Shown here in pieces: positions 7,297 through 62,694 of a DNA stretch of 62,694 nucleotides. The position numbers and the translations under genes are program-made. The stretch comes from Patescibacteria group bacterium. Its GTDB lineage: Bacteria > Patescibacteriota > Gracilibacteria > UM-FILTER-43-11. How positions within the stretch are numbered: the first letter of the stretch is position 1; every line of letters starts with the position of its first letter. Under the pieces are notes generated by a model. That model did no database searches. It was not told the DNA's origin and saw only the letters and a list, made by a program, of their open reading frames with translations. The stretch is from positions 1 through 62,694 of the forward strand of contig JAHIUN010000013.1 of the NCBI GenBank assembly GCA_018817125.1, written 5' to 3'.

Positions 7297-7412
7297 AGGT
7301 TCGTATTGTGGCTCGTATTGTAGGTCGTATCGTGGGTCGTATGGTGGCTCGTATTGTGGTCTACTATTCGATCCACAATTCGGCCAACCATTCGAGCCAC
7401 TATCCGGGGCTA
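7297..7412. repeat. Quasi-palindromic array, family GGCTCGTATTGTGG, between ctpA and dnaJ
   Basis: About six direct units of 14-15 nt (TCGTATTGTGGC, TCGTATTGTAGG, TCGTATCGTGGG, TCGTATGGTGGC and so on) fill the left half. The right half carries inverted units (GATCCACAATTCGG, CCAACCATTCGAGCC, CTATCCGGGGC). The whole fills the gap between two co-directional genes. The same unit, in the form CCACAATTCGCTCCACCATTCGAG, occurs 49 kb away in the leader of a prepilin gene. Confidence 0.85.
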
Positions 7413-20990: not shown

Positions 20991-22001
20991 ATGTCTCATA
21001 ACCGAGCGGATTACGCCTACATCGTCGGACGCCTCCGGGCTCTCGAAACACGGCTCCCGACCGCTAATGTTTTGGAACGGATGATTGAAGCAGACACTGC
21101 GAACGCTGCCTTCCATGTATTGAATGACCTGACTTTTGTTTCAGGAAGCATTGGCGAACATACAGTGGATGAATTTCAGACGGTTCTAACGAAAGCCACT
21201 GAAAAGATGTCACGCCTGCTCGCCAAAATGTCTCCTGATCCAAATGTCCTGAAGTTTTTGTGGCTTAAATATGATTTTCATAACTTGAAAGTCACATTGA
21301 AAGCGCGATTGGTCGGACATGGTTATGCAGATGTAGAGCACGCGCTGGTGGATTTAGGTTGTATGCGTGCTGAAGATTGGGAGCGGTTTGTTTTGGAGGG
21401 GAAAATTCCTGCGCTGACCAAAGGGATGCATGGTGCGATGGCTGATGCTACTAAACAATACAAAAAAACTCATGATCCGCAGATCGTCGATCTGATTGTA
21501 GATAAACATTATATAGAAGAGATGCTGATGATGGCTGAGTGCTTTCAAAGCCCTCTTACTGTCGGTTATCTGCAGCGTCTTATTGACCTTACCAATCTTA
21601 AAGCGTTCATTCGCTGTAAAGAGCTTAAAAAAGAAGACAGTTATCTTGAGTCAGTGCTTTTGCATGGAGGCCGTGTTCCCGCTTCAATGATGCTGGAAAG
21701 CTATTCAAAAGGATATGATGAACTGAAAACTCTTTTAGAGCAAAAAATGCACGCGGACGAACTCGTGTTTGTTCTGGATGAATTTTTAAAAGAAAAAACG
21801 TTACTCGCCGCTGAAAAGAAAATAAGTGAACTTCTGCAGAATTATATGGATGAAAGTAAAAAAATGTCTTTTGGCCCTGAGCCTGTTTTTGCTTTCTTCT
21901 GGCGTTTTGAAAATCATATGCAGATCCTCCGGACTATCCTCGTCGGCAAGCGTAATCGGCTGACAGCGGAAGATATCCATAAACACGTTTTAACATTATA
22001 A
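20991..22001 (+). CDS. ntpC: V-type ATP synthase subunit C
   Basis: 336 aa. All-helical AC39/subunit C family protein: N-terminal YAYIVGRLRALETRL, a central FLWLKYDFHNLKVTLKARL, and a C-terminal VFAFFWRFENHMQILRTILVGK. It forms the funnel that links the central stalk to the membrane ring. Position between E and F matches the E. hirae operon. The stop codon TAA lies at the outer edge of a hairpin array. Confidence 0.93.
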   Translation: MSHNRADYAYIVGRLRALETRLPTANVLERMIEADTANAAFHVLNDLTFVSGSIGEHTVDEFQTVLTKATEKMSRLLAKMSPDPNVLKFLWLKYDFHNLKVTLKARLVGHGYADVEHALVDLGCMRAEDWERFVLEGKIPALTKGMHGAMADATKQYKKTHDPQIVDLIVDKHYIEEMLMMAECFQSPLTVGYLQRLIDLTNLKAFIRCKELKKEDSYLESVLLHGGRVPASMMLESYSKGYDELKTLLEQKMHADELVFVLDEFLKEKTLLAAEKKISELLQNYMDESKKMSFGPEPVFAFFWRFENHMQILRTILVGKRNRLTAEDIHKHVLTL

Positions 22002-22070
22002 AGAATTGCTGAAGAATAGCCTAAGAATAGCCAAGCGATGCTTAAGCAATTCTCAAGGCAATTCTCAATC
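22001..22070. repeat. ORF-less hairpin, family AAGAATTGCTTAAG (family B)
   Basis: Direct units AAGAATTGCTG, AAGAATAGCCT, AAGAATAGCC are followed by inverted AAGCAATTCTC and AGGCAATTCTC. This is the same unit as the arms that flank the four-helix-bundle gene at 41026-41394, but here the arms are only a few bases apart and hold no gene. Confidence 0.85.
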
Positions 22071-30762: not shown

Positions 30763-30850
30763 GAACTTTTTCACTGGATCACTTTTCACTGGATCACTTT
30801 TCACTGGATCACTTTTCACTGGATTAGTGTTCCGGTGATAAAAAGTTTTT
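30763..30850. repeat. Tandem 15-bp repeat with inverted end
   Basis: Four almost perfect TTTTCACTGGATCAC units in tandem, then GATTAGTGTTCCGGTGATAA, the inverted and altered form. AACTTTTTCACTGGATCAC pairs with GTGTTCCGGTGATAAAAAGTT. It is the most regular tandem in the window and lies between murB and nnrD. Confidence 0.9.
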
Positions 30851-33213: not shown

Positions 33214-33219
33214 ATTTCA

Positions 33220-33721
33220 AATAGATTTCAAATTGGGGGTCAGATTGGGGTTCAAATCGAGGTTTATAAGTTATTTTTTCTACGCAAATAATTTATAAAA
33301 TTTAATATTTTAATAGATAGATTCTTATATTGATTAAGATAAAATTCAAAAGCTTTTTTATCAATACATTTTTTATTATACAGGATATTTAAGTGATGTT
33401 GTGTTTCATCACTGGATCCCAATGCGATTGTAAGAAAGCGAATAAAATCTTTTGGATAGAATCTACGTCCAAATGCCTCCGCTATATTAGCAGAAATAGA
33501 CGAAGAAGAACGTTTTATCTGTCCGACTTGTTCTATGCGCCAAGTTAATTTGTCGATAACTGGGAATAATTCTTTTTCTAGCTGTGTGGCAATTGCATAT
33601 ACTCTTAATTCATTGAAGTGCATAAAATACTTTAAATACAAAATAAGGTGAAATTGTATATATGTTTTACTAAAAAATCAATTTGATCCACAATTTGACC
33701 TTCGATTTGGTCCTCAATTTG
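33220..33721. mobile_element. Candidate element 1: four-helix-bundle gene between inverted unit arrays (family A)
   Basis: Left arm 33220-33262 holds TTTCAAATTGGGGG, TCAGATTGGGG, TTCAAATCGAGG. Right arm 33677-33721, read as reverse complement, holds CAAATTGAGGAC, CAAATCGAAGG, TCAAATTGTGGA, TCAAATTGA. About 25 of 36 positions agree. ORF-less arrays of the same unit lie at 50305-50385 and 56941-57039, and single arms occur in coding sequence at 13010 and 52805. There is no transposase; mobility is inferred. Confidence 0.5.
33264..33623 (-). CDS. Four-helix-bundle protein, S23/IVP family (copy 1)
   Basis: 119 aa from ATG 33623 (an ATG at 33641 is also possible). Family marks: FNELRVYAIA at the start, QIKRSSSSISANIAEAFGRR in the middle, DFIRFLTIALGSSDETQHHL and YKNLSIKILNF late. 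These proteins form small four-helix bundles, often pentamers, related to ORFs inside 23S rRNA intervening sequences and to the Avd accessory protein of diversity-generating retroelements. Function unclear. Upstream it shares ATTTTGTATTTAAAG with copy 2. Enclosed by inverted repeat arms. Confidence 0.88.
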   Translation of the reverse strand: MHFNELRVYAIATQLEKELFPVIDKLTWRIEQVGQIKRSSSSISANIAEAFGRRFYPKDFIRFLTIALGSSDETQHHLNILYNKKCIDKKAFEFYLNQYKNLSIKILNFINYLRRKNNL

Positions 33722-34372
33722 CTATTCGTAGGCTTCAACCGTTACTTTCTCCATCACCACATCTTCAAGCGGTTTATCCCGCCCGTCCCGTTCGACTTTG
33801 GCGATAGCATCTACTATCTCCATTCCTTCAAATACCTGTCCGAATACCGTGTGGGCGTCGTCCAGCCACGGGGTGGATTCGGCATGAACGATAAAGAACT
33901 GACTGCCGTTGGTGCCCGGGCCGGCGTTGGCCATCGAAAGAGTACCTTTGATGTTTTTTAAATCAGGATGGAACTCATCTTCAAATTTTCCGCCCCATAA
34001 ACTTTCTCCGCCCATTCCCGTTCCGGTCGGGTCGCCTCCCTGGATCATGAAATCGGGGATGACGCGATGAAAGATAATACCGTCGTAATAGCCTTTTTCG
34101 ATCAGGCCGACAAAATTCTCAACCGTTTTAGGCGCTTTCAGCGGGAAAAGTTTGATTTTAATCGTTCCCATGTTCGTTTCAATCACAGCGATCTGGTCGC
34201 CAGCTTCAGGTGGAGCGGTTTGGTCAAATTCAGCCATGGTAGTGGGGTTAGTGGGATCAGTTGTGATGGCGCCGCCCTGATAGACTTTGCTGATTTCCTC
34301 TTCCGGCGAGGTACCGCAAGCGGTGAGCAAAATAAAAGAAAGGGCCATCAGAAAAATAGAAGTCTTTTTCAT
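33722..34372 (-). CDS. Cyclophilin-type peptidyl-prolyl isomerase, lipoprotein
   Basis: 216 aa. A lipobox LLTAC at residues 15-19 makes it a surface or membrane-tethered lipoprotein. The cyclophilin domain (about 60-212) keeps the catalytic set: [27 protein letters not shown] and [12 protein letters not shown]. It assists folding of exported proteins. The stop codon touches the right arm of candidate element 1. The pilin gene lies 20 bases upstream in the same direction. Confidence 0.93.
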
Positions 34373-35615: not shown

Positions 35616-35966
35616 GCTCACTCTACCGAAATGCAAAGAACCGCCTCCGAGACAAGGTCTCCATAAAATGCGAGGCAGGGAGGTAGATGGAGGGTATTTT
35701 ATGGAGAAGGAGTAAAATGAGATGCAGACTGAAGTAAGCGGTGGAGAGATGCGTAGCCGCTTACAAAAGCCGAAATCTAATTTTACGATGGCTCGGGAGG
35801 AGGGATAATCTCACATTCTCGTCATCTTCGCTAAAGCTTCGATGTCTCCGAGGTCGAGTGCTCAAATAGTCGCTTTGCTCCTTTTTCGCTACGAACCCAA
35901 GGGTTCTCATCCCACTCTACCGAGATTCAAAGAACCGCCTCCGAGATAAACTCGGAACCAGTTCTT
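35616..35966. repeat. Gene-free stretch with tRNA-end duplication and 34-bp direct repeat
   Basis: No coding region. Two copies of CACTCTACCGARATKCAAAG extended to 34 bp (35619-35652 and 35913-35946, 32 of 34 identical) lie 294 bp apart. An 18-bp copy of the tRNA-Gln 3' end including CCA (TGGCTCGGGAGGAGGGAT, 35789-35806) lies 178 bp from the functional one (35967-35984) in the same orientation. This pattern fits the remains of an insertion at the tRNA 3' end or decayed tRNA copies. Confidence 0.75.
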
Positions 35967-36041
35967 TGGCTCGGGAGGAGGGATTCGAACCCCCGAATGC
36001 ATGGACCAAAACCATGTGCCTTACCACTTGGCGACTCCCGA
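35967..36041 (-). tRNA. tRNA-Gln (anticodon TTG)
   Basis: On the minus strand: acceptor TCGGGAG/CTCCCGA, D arm GCC...GGC with AAGTGGTAA loop, anticodon stem CATGG/CCATG with loop TTTTGGT (anticodon TTG), T arm GGGGG/CCCTC with TTCGAAT loop, discriminator G and encoded CCA. 75 bases including CCA, no intron. A CCGAG/CTCGG hairpin follows the 3' end at about 35941-35957. Confidence 0.95.
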
Positions 36042-36871: not shown

Positions 36872-36993
36872 ACTCTCTTTAAGATTATTAAGACTTTTGT
36901 GACTTTTAGGACTTTTACGATTATTACGATGATGTATTTTATTCAATCGTAATAGTCCTAAAAGTCTTCATAATCCTAAAAATCCTAAAGAGT
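36872..36993. repeat. Large ORF-less quasi-palindrome, family C (GACTTTTAGGATTATTAAG)
   Basis: Left arm CTCTTTAAGATTATTAAGAC, TTTTGTGACTTTTAGGAC, TTTTACGATTATTACGAT. Right arm is the inverse: ATCGTAATAGTCCTAAAAGT, CTTCATAATCCTAAAAATCC, TAAAGAG. About 50 bases per arm around a 15-base centre. Its unit matches the arms around the four-helix-bundle domain at 58268-58722. The remaining gap to the VanW gene holds an ATGCGCAT palindrome (36841-36848) and the VanW promoter. Confidence 0.88.
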
Positions 36994-40251: not shown

Positions 40252-40320
40252 TAAGTCTTAAGTCCTAAGTCGTAAGCCAGCTATCAGCTTAGAACTTAAG
40301 ACTTATAACTTAGAACTTGT
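40252..40320. repeat. Quasi-palindromic array, family TAAGTCTTAAGTCCTAAG
   Basis: Left TAAGTCTTAAGTCCTAAGTC, centre CCAGCTATCAGCTTAG, right AACTTAAGACTTATAACTTA plus GAACTT. It fills the rsmG-rlmE gap. Confidence 0.8.
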
Positions 40321-40326
40321 AAAAAT

Positions 40327-40917
40327 ATGTCAAAAGTTTATCAGCCTCAGGACAAGTTTTTTAAAAAGGCCAAAGAGCAGGGCTATCGGGCTCGCAGTGC
40401 CTTTAAGCTTCAGGCTATTCAGGATCGCTTTCATTTAATCAGTCCGGGTGACCACGTCCTTGATTTGGGGGCGGCGCCGGGGAGTTTTTTACAATTGGTT
40501 GAAAAGCTTGTCGGCTCTAAGGGGCTGGCTGTCGGAATCGACTTAAAACCTATCGAAGATTTAAAAAAACCGAACATCAAAACCATCGTTGGCGATATTC
40601 TGGATGATGCTATTTATCAGCAGCTCGGCATTGATCAATTTGATGTGATTACTTCCGATCTTGCCCCTTCAACATCTGGTGTTAAGAGCGTGGATGCAGG
40701 GCGGTCTTTTCAGCTTAATGAACAAGTCCTGAATGTGGCCGAGAAGTATCTGAAACTCGGTGGGCACGTGGTGATGAAGGCCTTTCCGGGTGCTGAGCAC
40801 CAACAGCTGCTTAAAAAAGCAAAAGGTATGTTTAAAAACATCAAAACTTTTAAGCCTGAGGCGGTTCGTAAGTCCAGCAGAGAAGAATATGTAATCGGAA
40901 TAGAAAGAATTGCTTAA
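40327..40917 (+). CDS. rlmE: 23S rRNA (uridine2552-2'-O)-methyltransferase
   Basis: 196 aa. RlmE/FtsJ fold: YRARSAFKLQAIQDRF, SAM motif VLDLGAAPGSFLQ near residue 46, and the K-D-K-E catalytic set (Lys in SAFKL, Asp in SDLAPSTSG, Lys in VVMKAFPG, Glu in SREEYV). It methylates U2552 in the 50S A loop. The last codons and the stop (AGAATTGCTTAA) are also the first unit of the left arm of candidate element 2, so the C-terminus has been overwritten by the repeat. Confidence 0.94.
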   Translation: MSKVYQPQDKFFKKAKEQGYRARSAFKLQAIQDRFHLISPGDHVLDLGAAPGSFLQLVEKLVGSKGLAVGIDLKPIEDLKKPNIKTIVGDILDDAIYQQLGIDQFDVITSDLAPSTSGVKSVDAGRSFQLNEQVLNVAEKYLKLGGHVVMKAFPGAEHQQLLKKAKGMFKNIKTFKPEAVRKSSREEYVIGIERIA

Positions 40918-41435
40918 GAATTGCTTAAGAATCGCTTAAAGAATAGCTCAAGGATTGCTTAAGAATAGCTTGAGAATTTTGTTAATATACGTTAGCATGG
41001 CGTACTATTTTGTATTTAAGTGAATATGAGTCAAACATTTAAAAATCTGAGAGTTTATCAGATTGCAATTGATCTTAGTGCCGAGATTTATAAATTGGCT
41101 TTGAAATTACCTGCATCTGAAAAATATAGAATTGCGGATCAAATAATCAGAAGCTCCCGTTCTGTGCCTGCCAATATTGCGGAGGGTTATTCTAGGAAAA
41201 AATATAAAGCTGATTTTTTAAGATACCTTACTATTGCTCATGGCTCCTCAGAGGAAACCAAAGTCCATTTGGAGGTATTAAACAATTCTAGACTAATATC
41301 ATTTGAGATTTATTCGGATTTATTAAGAAGGTATAAAAATTTGTCAGTTCGGATAATCAATTATAAGAAAAAGATTCAAGAAGATATGAACTGATCAATT
41401 TTGAGCAATTCTTAGACAATTCTTAAGCAATTCTT
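40910..41435. mobile_element. Candidate element 2: four-helix-bundle gene between inverted unit arrays (family B)
   Basis: Left arm 40910-40975 has units AGAATTGCTTA, AGAATTGCTTA, AGAATCGCTTAA, AGAATAGCTCA and so on. Right arm 41399-41435 as reverse complement reads AGAATTGCTTA, AGAATTGTCTA, AGAATTGCTCA. The outer 35 bases agree at 31 positions. The left arm starts inside the rlmE stop and the right arm ends at the pyrG stop. The ORF-less array at 22001-22070 has the same unit. Confidence 0.55.
41026..41394 (+). CDS. Four-helix-bundle protein, S23/IVP family (copy 2)
   Basis: 122 aa from ATG 41026 (GTG 41020 also in frame). FKNLRVYQIAIDLSAEIY, QIIRSSRSVPANIAEGYSRK, DFLRYLTIAHGSSEETKVHL and YKNLSVRIINY align closely with copy 1. 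The upstream ATTTTGTATTTAAG matches copy 1 (ATTTTGTATTTAAAG), and TTGTTA with TACTAT at 18-base spacing (40979-41008) may be the promoter. The gene sits between inverted arms. Proposed as the trans-acting partner of the family B hairpins; no activity is shown for the family. Confidence 0.9.
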   Translation: MSQTFKNLRVYQIAIDLSAEIYKLALKLPASEKYRIADQIIRSSRSVPANIAEGYSRKKYKADFLRYLTIAHGSSEETKVHLEVLNNSRLISFEIYSDLLRRYKNLSVRIINYKKKIQEDMN

Positions 41436-41436
41436 C

Positions 41437-43032
41437 CTACAAAGCTGTTTTAATAAAATCCCGGAAGAGGGGATGAGGTCTATTTGGTCGTGATTTGAAC
41501 TCAGGATGGAATTGTGAGCCAACCATAAAAGGATGGCTTTTTACTTCAACGATTTCCATTAGCTCGCGATCTGGTGATACCCCTGAAAAGATCAGGCCTT
41601 TTTTCTCGAGCTGTGCTTTAAATTTATTATTAAACTCATACCGATGACGATGCCGTTCATCAATACGCTCTATCCCATAAGCTTTATAAGCCTTTGTTCC
41701 CTTTTTCAGTTTACAAGGCCAGGAGCCAAGTCTTAGTGTTCCGCCTTTAGCCCGTTTTTCGTTTTGGCCCGGCAGGAAGTGGACGACTTTGTTTTTCGCT
41801 TTTGGAGAAAACTCTTCGGAGGTCGCGTTTTTTATTTCCGCGACGTTTTGAGCGAATTCAATGGTCATGATCTGTGCCCCTAAACACAATCCAAGATAGG
41901 GTACTTTTTCTTCACGGCAGTATTGCGCAACGAGGATTTTTCCGGTGGTTCCCCGATGGCCAAAACCACCAGGTACCACAACGCCATCTACTTTATGCAG
42001 TTTTTTCCATTCCAGCCGGTCTTTGGCTTCGATTTTTTCCGCATCAATCCACACGATTTTGGCTTTACGCTTGTGAAAAAAGCTTGCGGATTTAATAGCT
42101 TCGATCACCGAAATGTATGCGTCATCTAAGTCGTTGTATTTACCGGCCAGTCCGATCAGGATTTCATCATGTTTTGTCATGATGTTTTTTACCATCTTTT
42201 CCCACTCAGCCATCTTTGGTTTCTTGTATTTAAGATTCAGTTTTTTGCAAATCGTTTTAACAATATCGTATTTTTCGTAGATGAGCGGGACTTCATAAAT
42301 CGATTGAACGGTTGGAGAGGGAATAACAGCCTCTTTTTCCACATCACAGAATTTTGAAATTTTCAATAAGTGGCTATTTTCAATCTTTTCGTCGGCTCGT
42401 GGCATGATGATATCCGGATGAATACCCATGCTTTGTAATGTCCGGACTGATAACTGAGTCGGTTTCGTTTTCAGTTCATTAGAAGCCTTAAGAAATGGCA
42501 GCAGCGTTAAATGGATAAAAAGTGTGTTTTCCCGCCCTTCTTCGTTCCGCATTTGGCGAAGCGCTTCGATGAACGGCTGACCTTCAATATCTCCCACAGT
42601 CCCTCCGATTTCGCAAAGTATAATGTCAGCTTTGGATTTGCGTGCCGCCTCCCGAATCCTTCTTTTTATTTCATCGGTGATATGAGGAATGATCTGAATG
42701 GTTTTCCCTAAATAGTCCCCCTTTCTCTCACAATCTAAAACCGATTGATAAACTTGTCCTGTGGAAAAACTACTAAATTTACTAAGAGAAATATCAATGA
42801 ACCGTTCGTAATGTCCAAGGTCCAAATCCGTTTCTGCTCCGTCGTTCGTTACAAATACTTCCCCATGCTGGAATGGGCTCATCGTGCCGGGATCTACATT
42901 TAAATAAGGATCGAGTTTTTGCGTAAACACAGAATAGCCGGAGGCTTTCATCAGATTTCCGATAGAGGCTGAGGCGATTCCTTTGCCGAGCGAAGAGCAG
43001 ACCCCCCCAGTGACGAATATGTATTTGGGCAT
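41437..43032 (-). CDS. pyrG: CTP synthase
   Basis: 531 aa, full length. N-terminal synthetase domain: FVTGGVCSSLGKGIASASIG, then KLDPYLNVDPGTMSPFQHGE. C-terminal class I glutaminase with the nucleophile Cys in YLGLCLGAQ and the His/Glu pair in FHPEFKSRP. It makes CTP from UTP, ATP and glutamine. It converges on the four-helix-bundle gene. trpS lies 25 bases upstream in the same direction. Confidence 0.98.
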   Translation of the reverse strand: MPKYIFVTGGVCSSLGKGIASASIGNLMKASGYSVFTQKLDPYLNVDPGTMSPFQHGEVFVTNDGAETDLDLGHYERFIDISLSKFSSFSTGQVYQSVLDCERKGDYLGKTIQIIPHITDEIKRRIREAARKSKADIILCEIGGTVGDIEGQPFIEALRQMRNEEGRENTLFIHLTLLPFLKASNELKTKPTQLSVRTLQSMGIHPDIIMPRADEKIENSHLLKISKFCDVEKEAVIPSPTVQSIYEVPLIYEKYDIVKTICKKLNLKYKKPKMAEWEKMVKNIMTKHDEILIGLAGKYNDLDDAYISVIEAIKSASFFHKRKAKIVWIDAEKIEAKDRLEWKKLHKVDGVVVPGGFGHRGTTGKILVAQYCREEKVPYLGLCLGAQIMTIEFAQNVAEIKNATSEEFSPKAKNKVVHFLPGQNEKRAKGGTLRLGSWPCKLKKGTKAYKAYGIERIDERHRHRYEFNNKFKAQLEKKGLIFSGVSPDRELMEIVEVKSHPFMVGSQFHPEFKSRPNRPHPLFRDFIKTAL

Positions 43033-44231: not shown

Positions 44232-44585
44232 ATGGCATCAGAACTTTCAGTAATCATTGCCGATGGTCCTAACCCTGCTGTTAAAGTGGTCACGCTGGTC
44301 GGGGAAATGGATGAATCAAATATAGAATCCGTAAGAGGTCAGTTGGATACTCTTTTGGCTGATTTGAGTGTTGTCCATTTGGTTTTTGATTTAGCCCAAC
44401 TTGAATTTATCAATAGTAAAGGAATCGGTTATCTGGTCTCCGTGCACACCCATCTTTCAAAAGATAAGCGCGTGCTAATTTTGGCGGATGCCCAGGAGGC
44501 GGTGATGGATGTGATCAGTTTGGTAGGGTTAACGACCATTATCAAATACTTTCAGACATTGGATGAGGCTCTCCAGAATTTGTAA
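44232..44585 (+). CDS. STAS domain protein (anti-sigma factor antagonist-like)
   Basis: 117 aa from ATG 44232 (MASELSVII); an ATG at 44214 is also possible, adding six residues. STAS fold with the conserved loop LEFINSKGIGYL, where Ser precedes Lys-Gly, equivalent to the phosphorylated Ser of SpoIIAA/RsbV. Such proteins release partner-bound sigma factors or regulate other partners. No anti-sigma kinase or sigma factor gene is next to it. It precedes the antiporter gene by 72 bases, occupied by a repeat array. Confidence 0.85.
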   Translation: MASELSVIIADGPNPAVKVVTLVGEMDESNIESVRGQLDTLLADLSVVHLVFDLAQLEFINSKGIGYLVSVHTHLSKDKRVLILADAQEAVMDVISLVGLTTIIKYFQTLDEALQNL

Positions 44586-44655
44586 TTTTTAATTTGAAAT
44601 TTTTAATTACTAGATCTTTCAATAAAAATTAAAAACTAAAAATTAAAAAATAAGT
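44584..44655. repeat. Quasi-palindromic array, family AATTTTTAATTTGAAATTTTT
   Basis: Left AATTTTTAATTTGAAATTTT mirrors right AATAAAAATTAAAAACTAAA plus AATTAAAAAAT. It fills the gap between the STAS and antiporter genes. Confidence 0.7.
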
Positions 44656-57044: not shown

Positions 57045-58268
57045 ATGGCATTACTCGACACCCTACAACAAGAGAACCCCGTGCAGGTTATACCTGAAGG
57101 GTTCGATGAGGATAAAATTCCCGGTTTAGTGGATGAGATTTTTACTGAAGCCATTCAGAAGCGTGCCAGTGATATTCATTTTAAACCGCTCGAAGAAAAG
57201 CTGATGATCTATTTCCGGATCGACGGGCAGATGCTTCCCCATAAGGAGTTTGAAAAGCTGTATCATCACCCCATTGTGGCCCGCATCAAGATCATTTCCG
57301 GCCTTAAAATCGATGAACACCGACTTCCTCAGGATGGCAAAAGCAGTTTCACGCTTGAAGAGAAGGAAGTGGATTTGCGTGTGTCGGTCCTTCCTACGAA
57401 TTTTGGCGAGAAAGTGGTCATCCGTCTGCTGGAAAAAAGTCCTACGCTGGTCAAATTGCAAGACTTGGGCATGCTCCCCAATGTGCTTTTAAAAGTCGAG
57501 GAAAAACTGAAATCCAGCTATGGAATGATTCTGGCGGTGGGGCCTACGGGCAGTGGTAAATCCACCTCACTTTTTTCTATGATTTCCACATTCGATGCGA
57601 CCAAACACAACATCTGCACCCTGGAGGATCCGATTGAATACAAGATTCCCAATGTGACTCAGAGTCAGATCAACACCGAAATCGGTTTTGATTTCCCTGA
57701 TGGGCTTCGCACTATCGTTCGTCAGGATCCCGACATCATCATGGTGGGTGAAATCCGTGACCAGAAGACCGCGTCGCTCGCTATTGAGTCGGCGCTGACC
57801 GGGCATTTGGTTTTTTCCACTCTGCATACCAATACAGCAGTGGGCACGATTCAGCGTTTACTGAATATGGACATCGATCGCTTTCTGATCTCTACCGCCG
57901 TAAAACTTATCATCTCTCAGCGTTTGGCACGCAAAGTGTGTAATTATTGCCGTGAGCAATACGCCGTTCCCAAAAAATATCACGATTTACTGCGTAAGGA
58001 AATCGACGTCAATCCTGAGGAAGCCTTCTTCTATAAGTCAAAAGGCTGTGATAAGTGTAATCAAACGGGCTATAAGGGGCGTATCGGTTTATTTGAAGTG
58101 ATGGAAATGACTCCCGCGATTGAAGAGCTCATCGTGAAGGGCGCTTCCAATCCGGATATTGAAAAAAAGGCGGTTGAAGAGGGAACGATATTACTTCGGA
58201 AAGACGCTTTATTTAAAGCGGTTACCGGCGATATTACCATTGAAGAAGCGTTGCACATTATGTCTTAA
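57045..58268 (+). CDS. pilB: Type IV pilus assembly ATPase, short PilB/GspE
   Basis: 407 aa from ATG 57045 (TTG 57036 lies in the repeat arm). The N1 domain of standard PilB/GspE (about 150 residues) is missing. It begins with the N2-like region (ILFDEIFTEAIQKRASDIHF-type start), then Walker A GPTGSGKS near 166-173, Asp box and Walker B GEIRDQKTASLAIESALTGH, His box STLHTNTA, and a zinc-binding CNYCREQ...CDKCNQTG near 300-345. It powers pilus extension. Followed by the left arm of candidate element 3. Confidence 0.92.
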   Translation: MALLDTLQQENPVQVIPEGFDEDKIPGLVDEIFTEAIQKRASDIHFKPLEEKLMIYFRIDGQMLPHKEFEKLYHHPIVARIKIISGLKIDEHRLPQDGKSSFTLEEKEVDLRVSVLPTNFGEKVVIRLLEKSPTLVKLQDLGMLPNVLLKVEEKLKSSYGMILAVGPTGSGKSTSLFSMISTFDATKHNICTLEDPIEYKIPNVTQSQINTEIGFDFPDGLRTIVRQDPDIIMVGEIRDQKTASLAIESALTGHLVFSTLHTNTAVGTIQRLLNMDIDRFLISTAVKLIISQRLARKVCNYCREQYAVPKKYHDLLRKEIDVNPEEAFFYKSKGCDKCNQTGYKGRIGLFEVMEMTPAIEELIVKGASNPDIEKKAVEEGTILLRKDALFKAVTGDITIEEALHIMS

Positions 58269-58722
58269 TTATGACTCTTAGGATTATTAAGACTTTGAAG
58301 AATATTAAGATAAAAAATGTCTACATATAAAGGAACATTCAGAAAATTAATAGCTTGGCAGGCCGCCAAGGTTTTAACTAAAGAAATTTATCGCATTACT
58401 AATAAATTTCCTTCAGACGAGAAATATGGTTTAAGCAGTCAGATGAAGCGTGCATCTATTTCAATAATGTCTAATATTGCTGAGGGCAATCAAAGAACTG
58501 GCAGAAAGGATACTTTAAATTTCTTTAATATTGCTTTTAGTTCTCTTACTGAAGTTGATTGTCAGTCTGAAATAGCTTTTGAGCTAGATTATATATCAAA
58601 AAAGGATTATGACATTTTAACTGAATTAATTAATAAGGCTGGCTATCTTATTTTTCGTTTAGTTGAATCAAAAAGGGATCCTGATAGTCCTAAAAGTCAT
58701 AAAAATCAAAAAAATCCTAACG
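58268..58722. mobile_element. Candidate element 3: four-helix-bundle domain between inverted arms (family C)
   Basis: Left arm 58268-58312 has TATGACTCTTAGGATTATTA then AGACTTTGAAGAATATTAAG. Right arm 58676-58722 as reverse complement has TATGACTTTTAGGACTATCA. Over 26 aligned bases about 20 agree. The right arm is translated as the linker between the four-helix bundle and a prepilin. The ORF-less array 36872-36993 has the same unit. Confidence 0.5.
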
Positions 58723-59375
58723 AAAGAGGCTTTACCCTTGTTGAACTGCTTATCGCAGTAGCGATTATTGCTGTTTTGTCGGTTTCTTCCGTTGTTGGCT
58801 TCGCGTATTTAGGAGATATGCTGAAAGCGCGTGAGGTCACTGGTTTTATTACTGATACTATTCAACAGCAGGAGCTTAAAATTTTACGGGGAGAGTTTGA
58901 AGAAACTATTATTCACCTTTTGCCCAATTATTTGGTGATTGAAGAGATTGATGCAGAGTCTTCAATTGATTTAAATTTCAATAAGACTGCTTGTGATGAT
59001 GATTACCAGATTGATTTTGATATGGGTGGTAATTTAACTCAGCGCGATGAAGAAGGGGCGATTATTCGTATTGAAAGCGTTATTCCGCTTTCTAAATGTG
59101 TTTATTTTAAAGAAGCGGATGATATTGAATGGAGTTATCAGCTCACGATCGGAAATCAGTTTTCTAATACCATTCGCTTTGTCCATTTCAATCTTCAGCG
59201 GGAAAATCTTAATAATCCGATTGCGATTACTGAAGGTGATGGTTCGAGCATCCGCATTAAAGCTCCTTATGCAAAAAAAACTCTTTATAGCCCTGCTGGC
59301 AGTTTAGCTGGCTGGCTAGACTTAACGGTAACTGATCAGGAAGGGGGATCTACTGACACTTTAACGATTCGTTAA
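58317..59375 (+). CDS. Four-helix-bundle domain fused to a GspH/pilin-type prepilin
   Basis: 352 aa. Residues about 8-120 are a four-helix bundle of the S23/IVP family (FRKLIAWQAAKVLTKEIYRI, QMKRASISIMSNIAEGNQR, NFFNIAFSSLTEVDCQSEIA). Residues about 122-137 (SKRDPDSPKSHKNQKNPNE) are encoded by repeat units. Then G|FTLVELLIAVAIIAVLSVSS begins a prepilin of about 215 residues. Prepilin peptidase would cut after the Gly and release the bundle, so the fusion may be harmless. It likely arose when an element landed in the leader of an existing prepilin gene. Overlaps pilC by one base. Confidence 0.8.
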   Translation: MSTYKGTFRKLIAWQAAKVLTKEIYRITNKFPSDEKYGLSSQMKRASISIMSNIAEGNQRTGRKDTLNFFNIAFSSLTEVDCQSEIAFELDYISKKDYDILTELINKAGYLIFRLVESKRDPDSPKSHKNQKNPNERGFTLVELLIAVAIIAVLSVSSVVGFAYLGDMLKAREVTGFITDTIQQQELKILRGEFEETIIHLLPNYLVIEEIDAESSIDLNFNKTACDDDYQIDFDMGGNLTQRDEEGAIIRIESVIPLSKCVYFKEADDIEWSYQLTIGNQFSNTIRFVHFNLQRENLNNPIAITEGDGSSIRIKAPYAKKTLYSPAGSLAGWLDLTVTDQEGGSTDTLTIR

Positions 59376-62482: not shown

Positions 62483-62694
62483 TTCGAGCTCGGTATGGCA
62501 ATACAGCGTCAACATTTTGAAGGCGGAACAAAGATATAAGGCACGGGGGTCTGGGGGGACACGCCTGCCTGCCGGCAGGCAGGCCTATGGAGATGATGAT
62601 ATAAGGCATAACGTTGGTTTGGGTTCGTGGACCCCCAGGGCTTTTGCTACTTTTGGCCACAAAAGTAGAAAGAAAGATAGTAATACAGAAAAAG
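62483..62694. repeat. Right copy of the window-terminal inverted repeat
   Basis: The last 141 bases are the reverse complement of the first 141. About 70 further bases inward are similar but diverged (TTGTTCCGCCTTCAAAATGT on the complement against TTGTTCTGCCTTCAAAACGC on the left). It contains the same CTACTTTTG/CAAAAGTAG and GCCTGCCGGCAGGC palindromes. Confidence 0.85.

Follow-up and report, generated by a model that had tools for sequence, protein, structure and literature searches.

PF05635 four-helix-bundle genes between inverted arrays of short tandem repeats: a candidate class of small mobile DNA element

The gap between the convergent genes rlmE and pyrG of a draft bacterial genome (G000; 1.03 Mb, 17 contigs, 88.7% complete) contains a single ORF, a PF05635 four-helix-bundle (4HB) gene, which is enclosed by two inverted arrays of an 11-nt tandem repeat. 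The same arrangement recurs in at least 20 phyla and suggests a class of small spreading DNA element that has so far gone unrecognised. Within the bacterium's own taxonomic class the period of the repeat co-segregates with the clade of the protein, arrays lacking a gene are denser in genomes with more 4HB genes, and both occupied and empty versions of the same sites are found among relatives. With moderate confidence in the reading as a whole, we regard the element as a PF05635 gene placed between two arrays of its cognate repeat, from which we infer a protein that would bind the repeat, act on it also in trans and bring about its movement. All coordinates given below refer to the window, i.e. 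the whole stretch of 62,694 nt that was analysed, which corresponds to one whole contig (C2) of G000.

Anatomy of the element between rlmE and pyrG

The two arrays flanking the focal gene are built from the same 11-nt unit in opposite orientations (Table 1), with the copies of the right array (about 2.7) placed by the repeat search at 41406-41435. A preliminary description of this DNA had reported inverted arms matching at 31 of 35 bp around the 4HB gene, and a recount at 40905-40939 and 41401-41435 gave the same figure, while a longer pair of arms, 40901-40940 and 41400-41439, matches at 35 of 40 positions. The local score of the focal arms is 55, which was reached by none of the 100 dinucleotide shuffles (z 14.8). 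Among the 4HB-flanking pairs of the window these arms are indeed the best preserved, as had been claimed, but this does not extend to the genome, where the arms of L013 match at 44 of 44 positions. The left arm does not begin within the rlmE stop codon, where it had been placed, but 10 nt upstream of it. As the stop codon (TAA, 40915-40917) is contained in the first repeat unit, the last codons of rlmE belong to the left array. The right arm, thought to end at the stop codon of pyrG (41437-41439), comes near to it but ends 1 nt short of the codon. The focal element measures about 0.5 kb and is probably mobile, or was so until recently.

Table 1. Positions in the window of the focal element, its neighbours and related elements and arrays
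Feature	Position	Strand	Description
rlmE (FtsJ family)	40327..40917	+	Left neighbour; profile search
Left array	40905..40978	+	6.6 copies of 11-nt AAGAATTGCTT; the left arm is its first 35 nt
4HB gene, PF05635 / TIGR02436	41026..41394	+	Likeliest start ATG 41026; open from GTG 41020
Right array, inverted	41401..41435	-	About 2.7-3 copies of 11-nt AAGAATTGCTT
pyrG (CTP synthase)	41437..43032	-	Right neighbour; profile search
Second 4HB element	33216..33728	-	Gene 33264-33641, flanked by inverted 12-nt arrays (CAAATTGGGGGT)
Third 4HB element	58268..58733	+	9-nt arrays (TTAGGATTA type) around 4HB domain
Gene-less inverted array	7301..7406		12-nt unit like that of the 33216 element
Gene-less inverted array	21997..22068		11-nt unit like the focal one (AAGAATTGC); starts at upstream stop codon; imperfect, local score 24
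Gene-less inverted array	36875..36992		Arms of 48 nt; 9-nt unit of the 58268 element
Gene-less inverted array	40255..40318		7-nt unit AAGTCTT; just upstream of rlmE
Gene-less inverted array	44577..44650		7/14-nt A+T-rich unit

Repeats of other kinds are also present in the window. Its two ends (1-141 and 62554-62694) are perfect inverted copies of 141 nt, with a weaker 68-nt pair just inside, and represent either a genomic repeat that brought the assembly to an end or the product of a fold-back during assembly. In an intergenic stretch at 30768-30842, a 15-nt direct repeat (TTTTCACTGGATCAC) occurs in nearly four copies and has no inverted partner, and a 37-nt direct repeat (35619-35655 and 35913-35949; 92% identical, 294 nt apart) is located just before a tRNA gene (35970-36041, minus strand).

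Family and fold of the protein

PF05635 is common in bacteria and two of its structures have been solved; to our knowledge, its function is not known, and we know of no catalytic site in the family. The focal protein is assigned to PF05635 with an E-value of 3.9e-31 (107.9 bits against a curated cut-off of 33.8) and to TIGR02436 with an E-value of 9.4e-30 (103 bits against a cut-off of 24). A structure search with its AlphaFold model (pLDDT 94.3) retrieved as closest matches XCC0516 (2gsc) and BT_0352 (2rld), followed by the Avd proteins (4dwl, 8ubb) of diversity-generating retroelements (DGRs). The best of these matches, 2gsc, originates from Xanthomonas campestris, and the Xanthomonas PF05635 protein is a homopentamer (PMC4990558). 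The likeness to Avd is one of fold (TM 0.86 for the focal model against 4dwl); Avd, however, works with a reverse transcriptase, and no gene for such an enzyme (RVT_1) was found in G000 (88.7% complete), so that a reverse transcriptase partner and membership among the DGR Avd proteins were rejected. A phage origin was rejected as well, with no match among 50,697 phage records and four loci among 2.9 million viral contigs.

Inverted arms at other PF05635 genes

Further loci were retrieved from genome contigs by means of short conserved peptides, PANIAEGY among them, and the invariance of that motif is therefore partly a selection effect; the arms played no part in the retrieval. G000 contains 16 PF05635 genes, all divergent copies, 14 of which had inverted arms in a first test, whereas L006 and L007 had no detectable ones. 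Most of the arm-bearing elements of this genome have their own unit, 7, 9, 11 or 12 nt long, although in L016 the arms are present and the period is not clear. In a stricter test based on dinucleotide shuffles and applied to 125 loci, 12 of the 16 genes of G000 scored at least 30 and no shuffle reached them. Arm detection has no single exact threshold and the counts are accordingly quoted beside controls: arms that no shuffle reached were found at 69 of 80 PF05635 genes (86%) from at least 20 phyla, and at 10 of 417 control positions (2.4%) shifted by 1.1-1.9 kb within the same loci. The 80-locus set included Cyanobacteriota, Bacteroidota, Chloroflexota, Acidobacteriota, Pseudomonadota, Bacillota and others. 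Within the bacterium's own class, arms are present at 99 of 124 PF05635 genes, the other 25 being without detectable arms. Across the sets the locus-specific units are mostly of 7, 9 or 11-12 nt, with a period of mostly 7 nt or its double in the set of at least 20 phyla, and in 89 of 102 cases the arm upstream of the gene is rich in G when read on the coding strand. In-frame TGA codons were also noted in several genomes of the class, which would fit a lineage of Patescibacteria similar to the Gracilibacteria.

The gaps filled by the elements of G000 are of every orientation (6 convergent, 8 tandem and 2 divergent). Stop-codon edges are therefore not a target motif, contrary to the target preference suggested for the focal element in the preliminary description; the occupation of sites of all orientations also led us to reject convergent terminators as an explanation.

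The third element of the window differs in its gene: the reading frame of the 4HB domain continues across the right array into a type IV pilin/GspJ-like ORF (58317-59375), the pilin-like part of which has a prepilin motif from about residue 137. Sister 4HB proteins of this pilin-fused copy, in frames of 353 and 347 codons, are encoded in G004 and G012, respectively, and have the same 9-nt period. The fused copy and its sisters seem to have been inherited in place.

Repeat period follows protein clade

In order to compare proteins and repeats, a maximum-likelihood protein tree was constructed for the 75 elements of the class with a usable period. One clade (support 99/91) holds all 13 elements with 11-12 nt units, including the focal gene and L005 of G000, and 10 of the 12 elements with 9-nt units fall into another single clade. 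With four period labels, which are approximate values from the autocorrelation of short arms and in which 11 and 12 nt are pooled, the tree requires 9 changes as against 27.9 for shuffled labels, and none of 200 shuffles was as low. The period is not set by the genome: types with 7, 9 and 11-12 nt coexist in G000. Between genera, arm similarity rises with protein similarity (Mantel rho 0.14; 0 of 500 permutations), and elements of the same genus with distant proteins have arms no more similar than background. A period matched to the protein clade is unlike the behaviour of a passenger gene in a host repeat; on this comparative evidence, the protein and the repeat are best described as belonging to one element.

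Arrays without a gene

Besides the arrays that flank 4HB genes, the window contains gene-less inverted arrays (Table 1). Their density was determined in sampled stretches of 31 genomes of the class, counting arrays at a distance of over 700 bp from the nearest 4HB gene. In genomes with one 4HB gene or none, 564 kb of sequence held 17 arrays and a single inverted pair, and in those with at least four 4HB genes per Mb, 678 kb held 144 arrays and 42 inverted pairs. Array density is correlated with the number of 4HB genes (Spearman 0.70, P 1e-5), also within the bacterium's own family (Spearman 0.55-0.59, P 0.02-0.03), this within-family check being the sole control for kinship. The correlation persists when the number of Y1 transposase genes is taken into account (partial 0.56-0.58), but the latter number likewise predicts gene-less arrays (partial 0.56) and is thus a confounder. 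Inverted pairs separate the two, their partial correlation being 0.58 (P 0.0008) with the 4HB count and 0.30 (P 0.10, not significant) with the Y1 count. In G025, where three Y1 genes but no 4HB genes are present, 60 kb contained 3 arrays.

The Y1 transposase genes L332 (G000:C1), L347 (G001:C14) and L346 (G007:C18) are flanked by REP palindromes (GAGTCCGGACT). The bacterium's family contains a separate RAYT-REP-like system beside the 4HB arrays.

Occupied and empty sites

A search for an empty site among relatives, advised in the preliminary description, was successful: no 4HB gene is present between rlmE and pyrG in G016, G002, G010, G004, G012 and G017 of the same family, where the gaps range from 0 to about 140 nt. 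The focal element is therefore an insertion relative to most relatives. The junction of G016 carries a gene-less inverted 7-nt array, and in G001, a member of the same genus, as well as in G005 it is occupied by a HAD-type gene. The HAD gene of G001 was not found elsewhere in G000 (88.7% complete), and hence it may have been lost or replaced; on the same ground a moved neighbour gene was rejected as an explanation.

On plasmids, occupied and empty sites can be compared at the DNA level. A 4HB element lies between cas6 and cas4 in Anabaena 90 and is missing from Dolichospermum UHCC 0315A, which has an unrelated insert at this site, with flanks 98.7% identical. Nostoc C052 and N. edaphicum carry a 4HB element after a TraM-domain gene; the site is empty in Nostoc C057, and ATCC 53789 has there a stretch of array alone, the left edge of which coincides with that of the 4HB element. 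The element of Calothrix NIES-22 extends exactly from the stop codon of an integrase gene to the ATG of the next gene, and a short gap is found at this site in Tolypothrix and N. carneum. About 10-50 bp of the target appear to have been replaced by the plasmid inserts. Target-site duplications, the other mark that the preliminary description had proposed to look for, are visible neither at the edges of the focal element nor at the three plasmid insertions, which distinguishes these elements from insertion sequences. With respect to context, the cas6-cas4 element of Anabaena sp. 90 named above (L161, plasmid pANA02) is located inside a type I-D CRISPR operon, and Pseudanabaena galeata CCNP1313 likewise has a 4HB gene at its cas6-cas4 match.

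Possible mechanism and alternative explanations

The protein, which by homology would form a homopentameric ring, most likely recognises its own repeat and acts not just on both arms but also, in trans, on inverted arrays without a gene at other places in the genome. The repeat period could plausibly be read by such a ring, with its identical subunits set against a tandem array. Cutting and copying of the strands would probably be left to host enzymes, since no catalytic site is known in PF05635. The system would then follow the logic of RAYT transposases and their REPINs, but by means of a protein of quite different fold.

Several other explanations have to be weighed against this one. The element could act as RNA in the manner of the 23S rRNA inserts, its arms forming a stem in the transcript that RNase III would trim and the protein binding RNA. 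The protein family and the topology are shared with the inserts of Coxiella and Leptospira (PMC4990558), and the 539-nt RNA of the focal region folds with the arms paired (z -3.5). We nevertheless consider this unlikely: the focal site is not in an rRNA gene and no rRNA was detected in the window (Rfam), gene-less arrays at many intergenic sites speak against it, and the mismatches of the arms, read on the coding strand, have no excess of G-U over A-C (129:123 and 69:77), which gives no support to selection on a coding-strand RNA stem. This lack of a G-U excess would agree better with recognition or copying of double-stranded DNA. Alternatively, the protein might be a repeat-binding regulator that controls its own gene, the gene-less arrays being operators or nucleoid sites of its regulon and the arms being kept by selection, without transposition. 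The period that tracks the protein clade and the dispersed arrays that track gene number are compatible with such a role, and it is made possible by the copies that appear to have been inherited in place across genera. It is improbable as the whole explanation, however, since a regulator alone accounts neither for two flanks that are inverted copies, nor for 16 divergent copies in one small genome, nor for presence and absence on plasmids.

The arrays might also be owned by Y1 (RAYT) transposases, with the 4HB gene a passenger that had landed in them. Although relatives rich in arrays do possess Y1 genes and the Y1 count predicts arrays as stated above, of the 14 Y1 loci examined none lies between inverted arrays of the 4HB kind, several having ordinary REP palindromes instead (e.g. 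GAGTCCGGACTTGG), inverted pairs go with the number of 4HB genes rather than with that of Y1 genes, and a passenger would not match the repeat period to its own clade; we hold this to be very unlikely. The same applies to the most ordinary reading, in which terminator hairpins and microsatellites grown by slippage flank a neutral gene by chance. Short tandem repeats are common in bacteria and the focal site does lie between convergent genes, but tandem and divergent sites are occupied as well, no terminator-like site was found at the arms, and the frequency of arms at shifted controls is far below that at 4HB loci, which makes chance flanking a most improbable cause.

Comparison with known systems and implications

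The intervening sequences of 23S rRNA with an S23p/IVP ORF (Coxiella, Leptospira) are similar in that they comprise a PF05635 gene within complementary arms, measure about 0.4-0.5 kb and are sporadic. The preliminary description had stressed this likeness, which holds for the protein family and the gene-in-loop topology but not for working as an rRNA insert: the focal element lies outside rRNA, between protein-coding neighbours rlmE and pyrG, and is therefore not a 23S rRNA intervening sequence. Moreover, the arms of the 4HB elements consist of tandem units that are specific to each locus, copies of the arrays without a gene exist, and there is no RNA-pairing signature. RAYTs and REPINs, derived from IS200/IS605, are alike in having a protein gene beside cognate inverted repeats, dispersed gene-less inverted pairs, and genomes with several types of repeat, each of which goes with one type of protein. 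Correspondingly, gene-less cognate pairs are dispersed here (21997-22068; 42 pairs in 678 kb) and the repeat type is tied to the protein type by both period and arm sequence. However, the 4HB protein is not a Y1 protein, the arrays of 7-12 nt units are not REP palindromes, and the PF05635 gene is the only ORF of the focal element, which, lacking a Y1 (HUH) transposase, is not a REPIN.

Intergenic heptanucleotide arrays of cyanobacteria are known as STRRs. Heptamer arrays of this kind consist of GGGAATC in Xanthomonas and GGGGA(C/T)T in Nostoc, and those of Xanthomonas include 70-75 convergent (inverted) pairs (PMC4692102). The likeness to the 4HB arrays lies in the intergenic heptamers and, in Xanthomonas, the home of 2gsc, in the inverted pairs; the heptamer arrays were, however, described without a protein, and a link to PF05635 is absent from that paper (PMC4692102). 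No link between PF05635 and short tandem arrays was found in the literature covered, which included few subscription journals, so that novelty is unproven.

Tentatively, PF05635 may represent a widespread minimal class of mobile elements without a recognisable transposase, which would make and spread their own short-tandem-repeat hairpins. Elements of this sort could supply the source still missing for the heptamer arrays between the genes of cyanobacteria, Xanthomonas and others, and the rRNA intervening sequences would be a special case that landed in an rRNA gene. If true, this would set the rRNA intervening sequences and the Avd proteins of DGRs next to a wider family of four-helix bundles that handle repeats. 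The link gives a testable role both to the PF05635 family and to heptamer arrays described without a cause, and the arrays themselves provide exact candidate substrates for binding by the 4HB protein.
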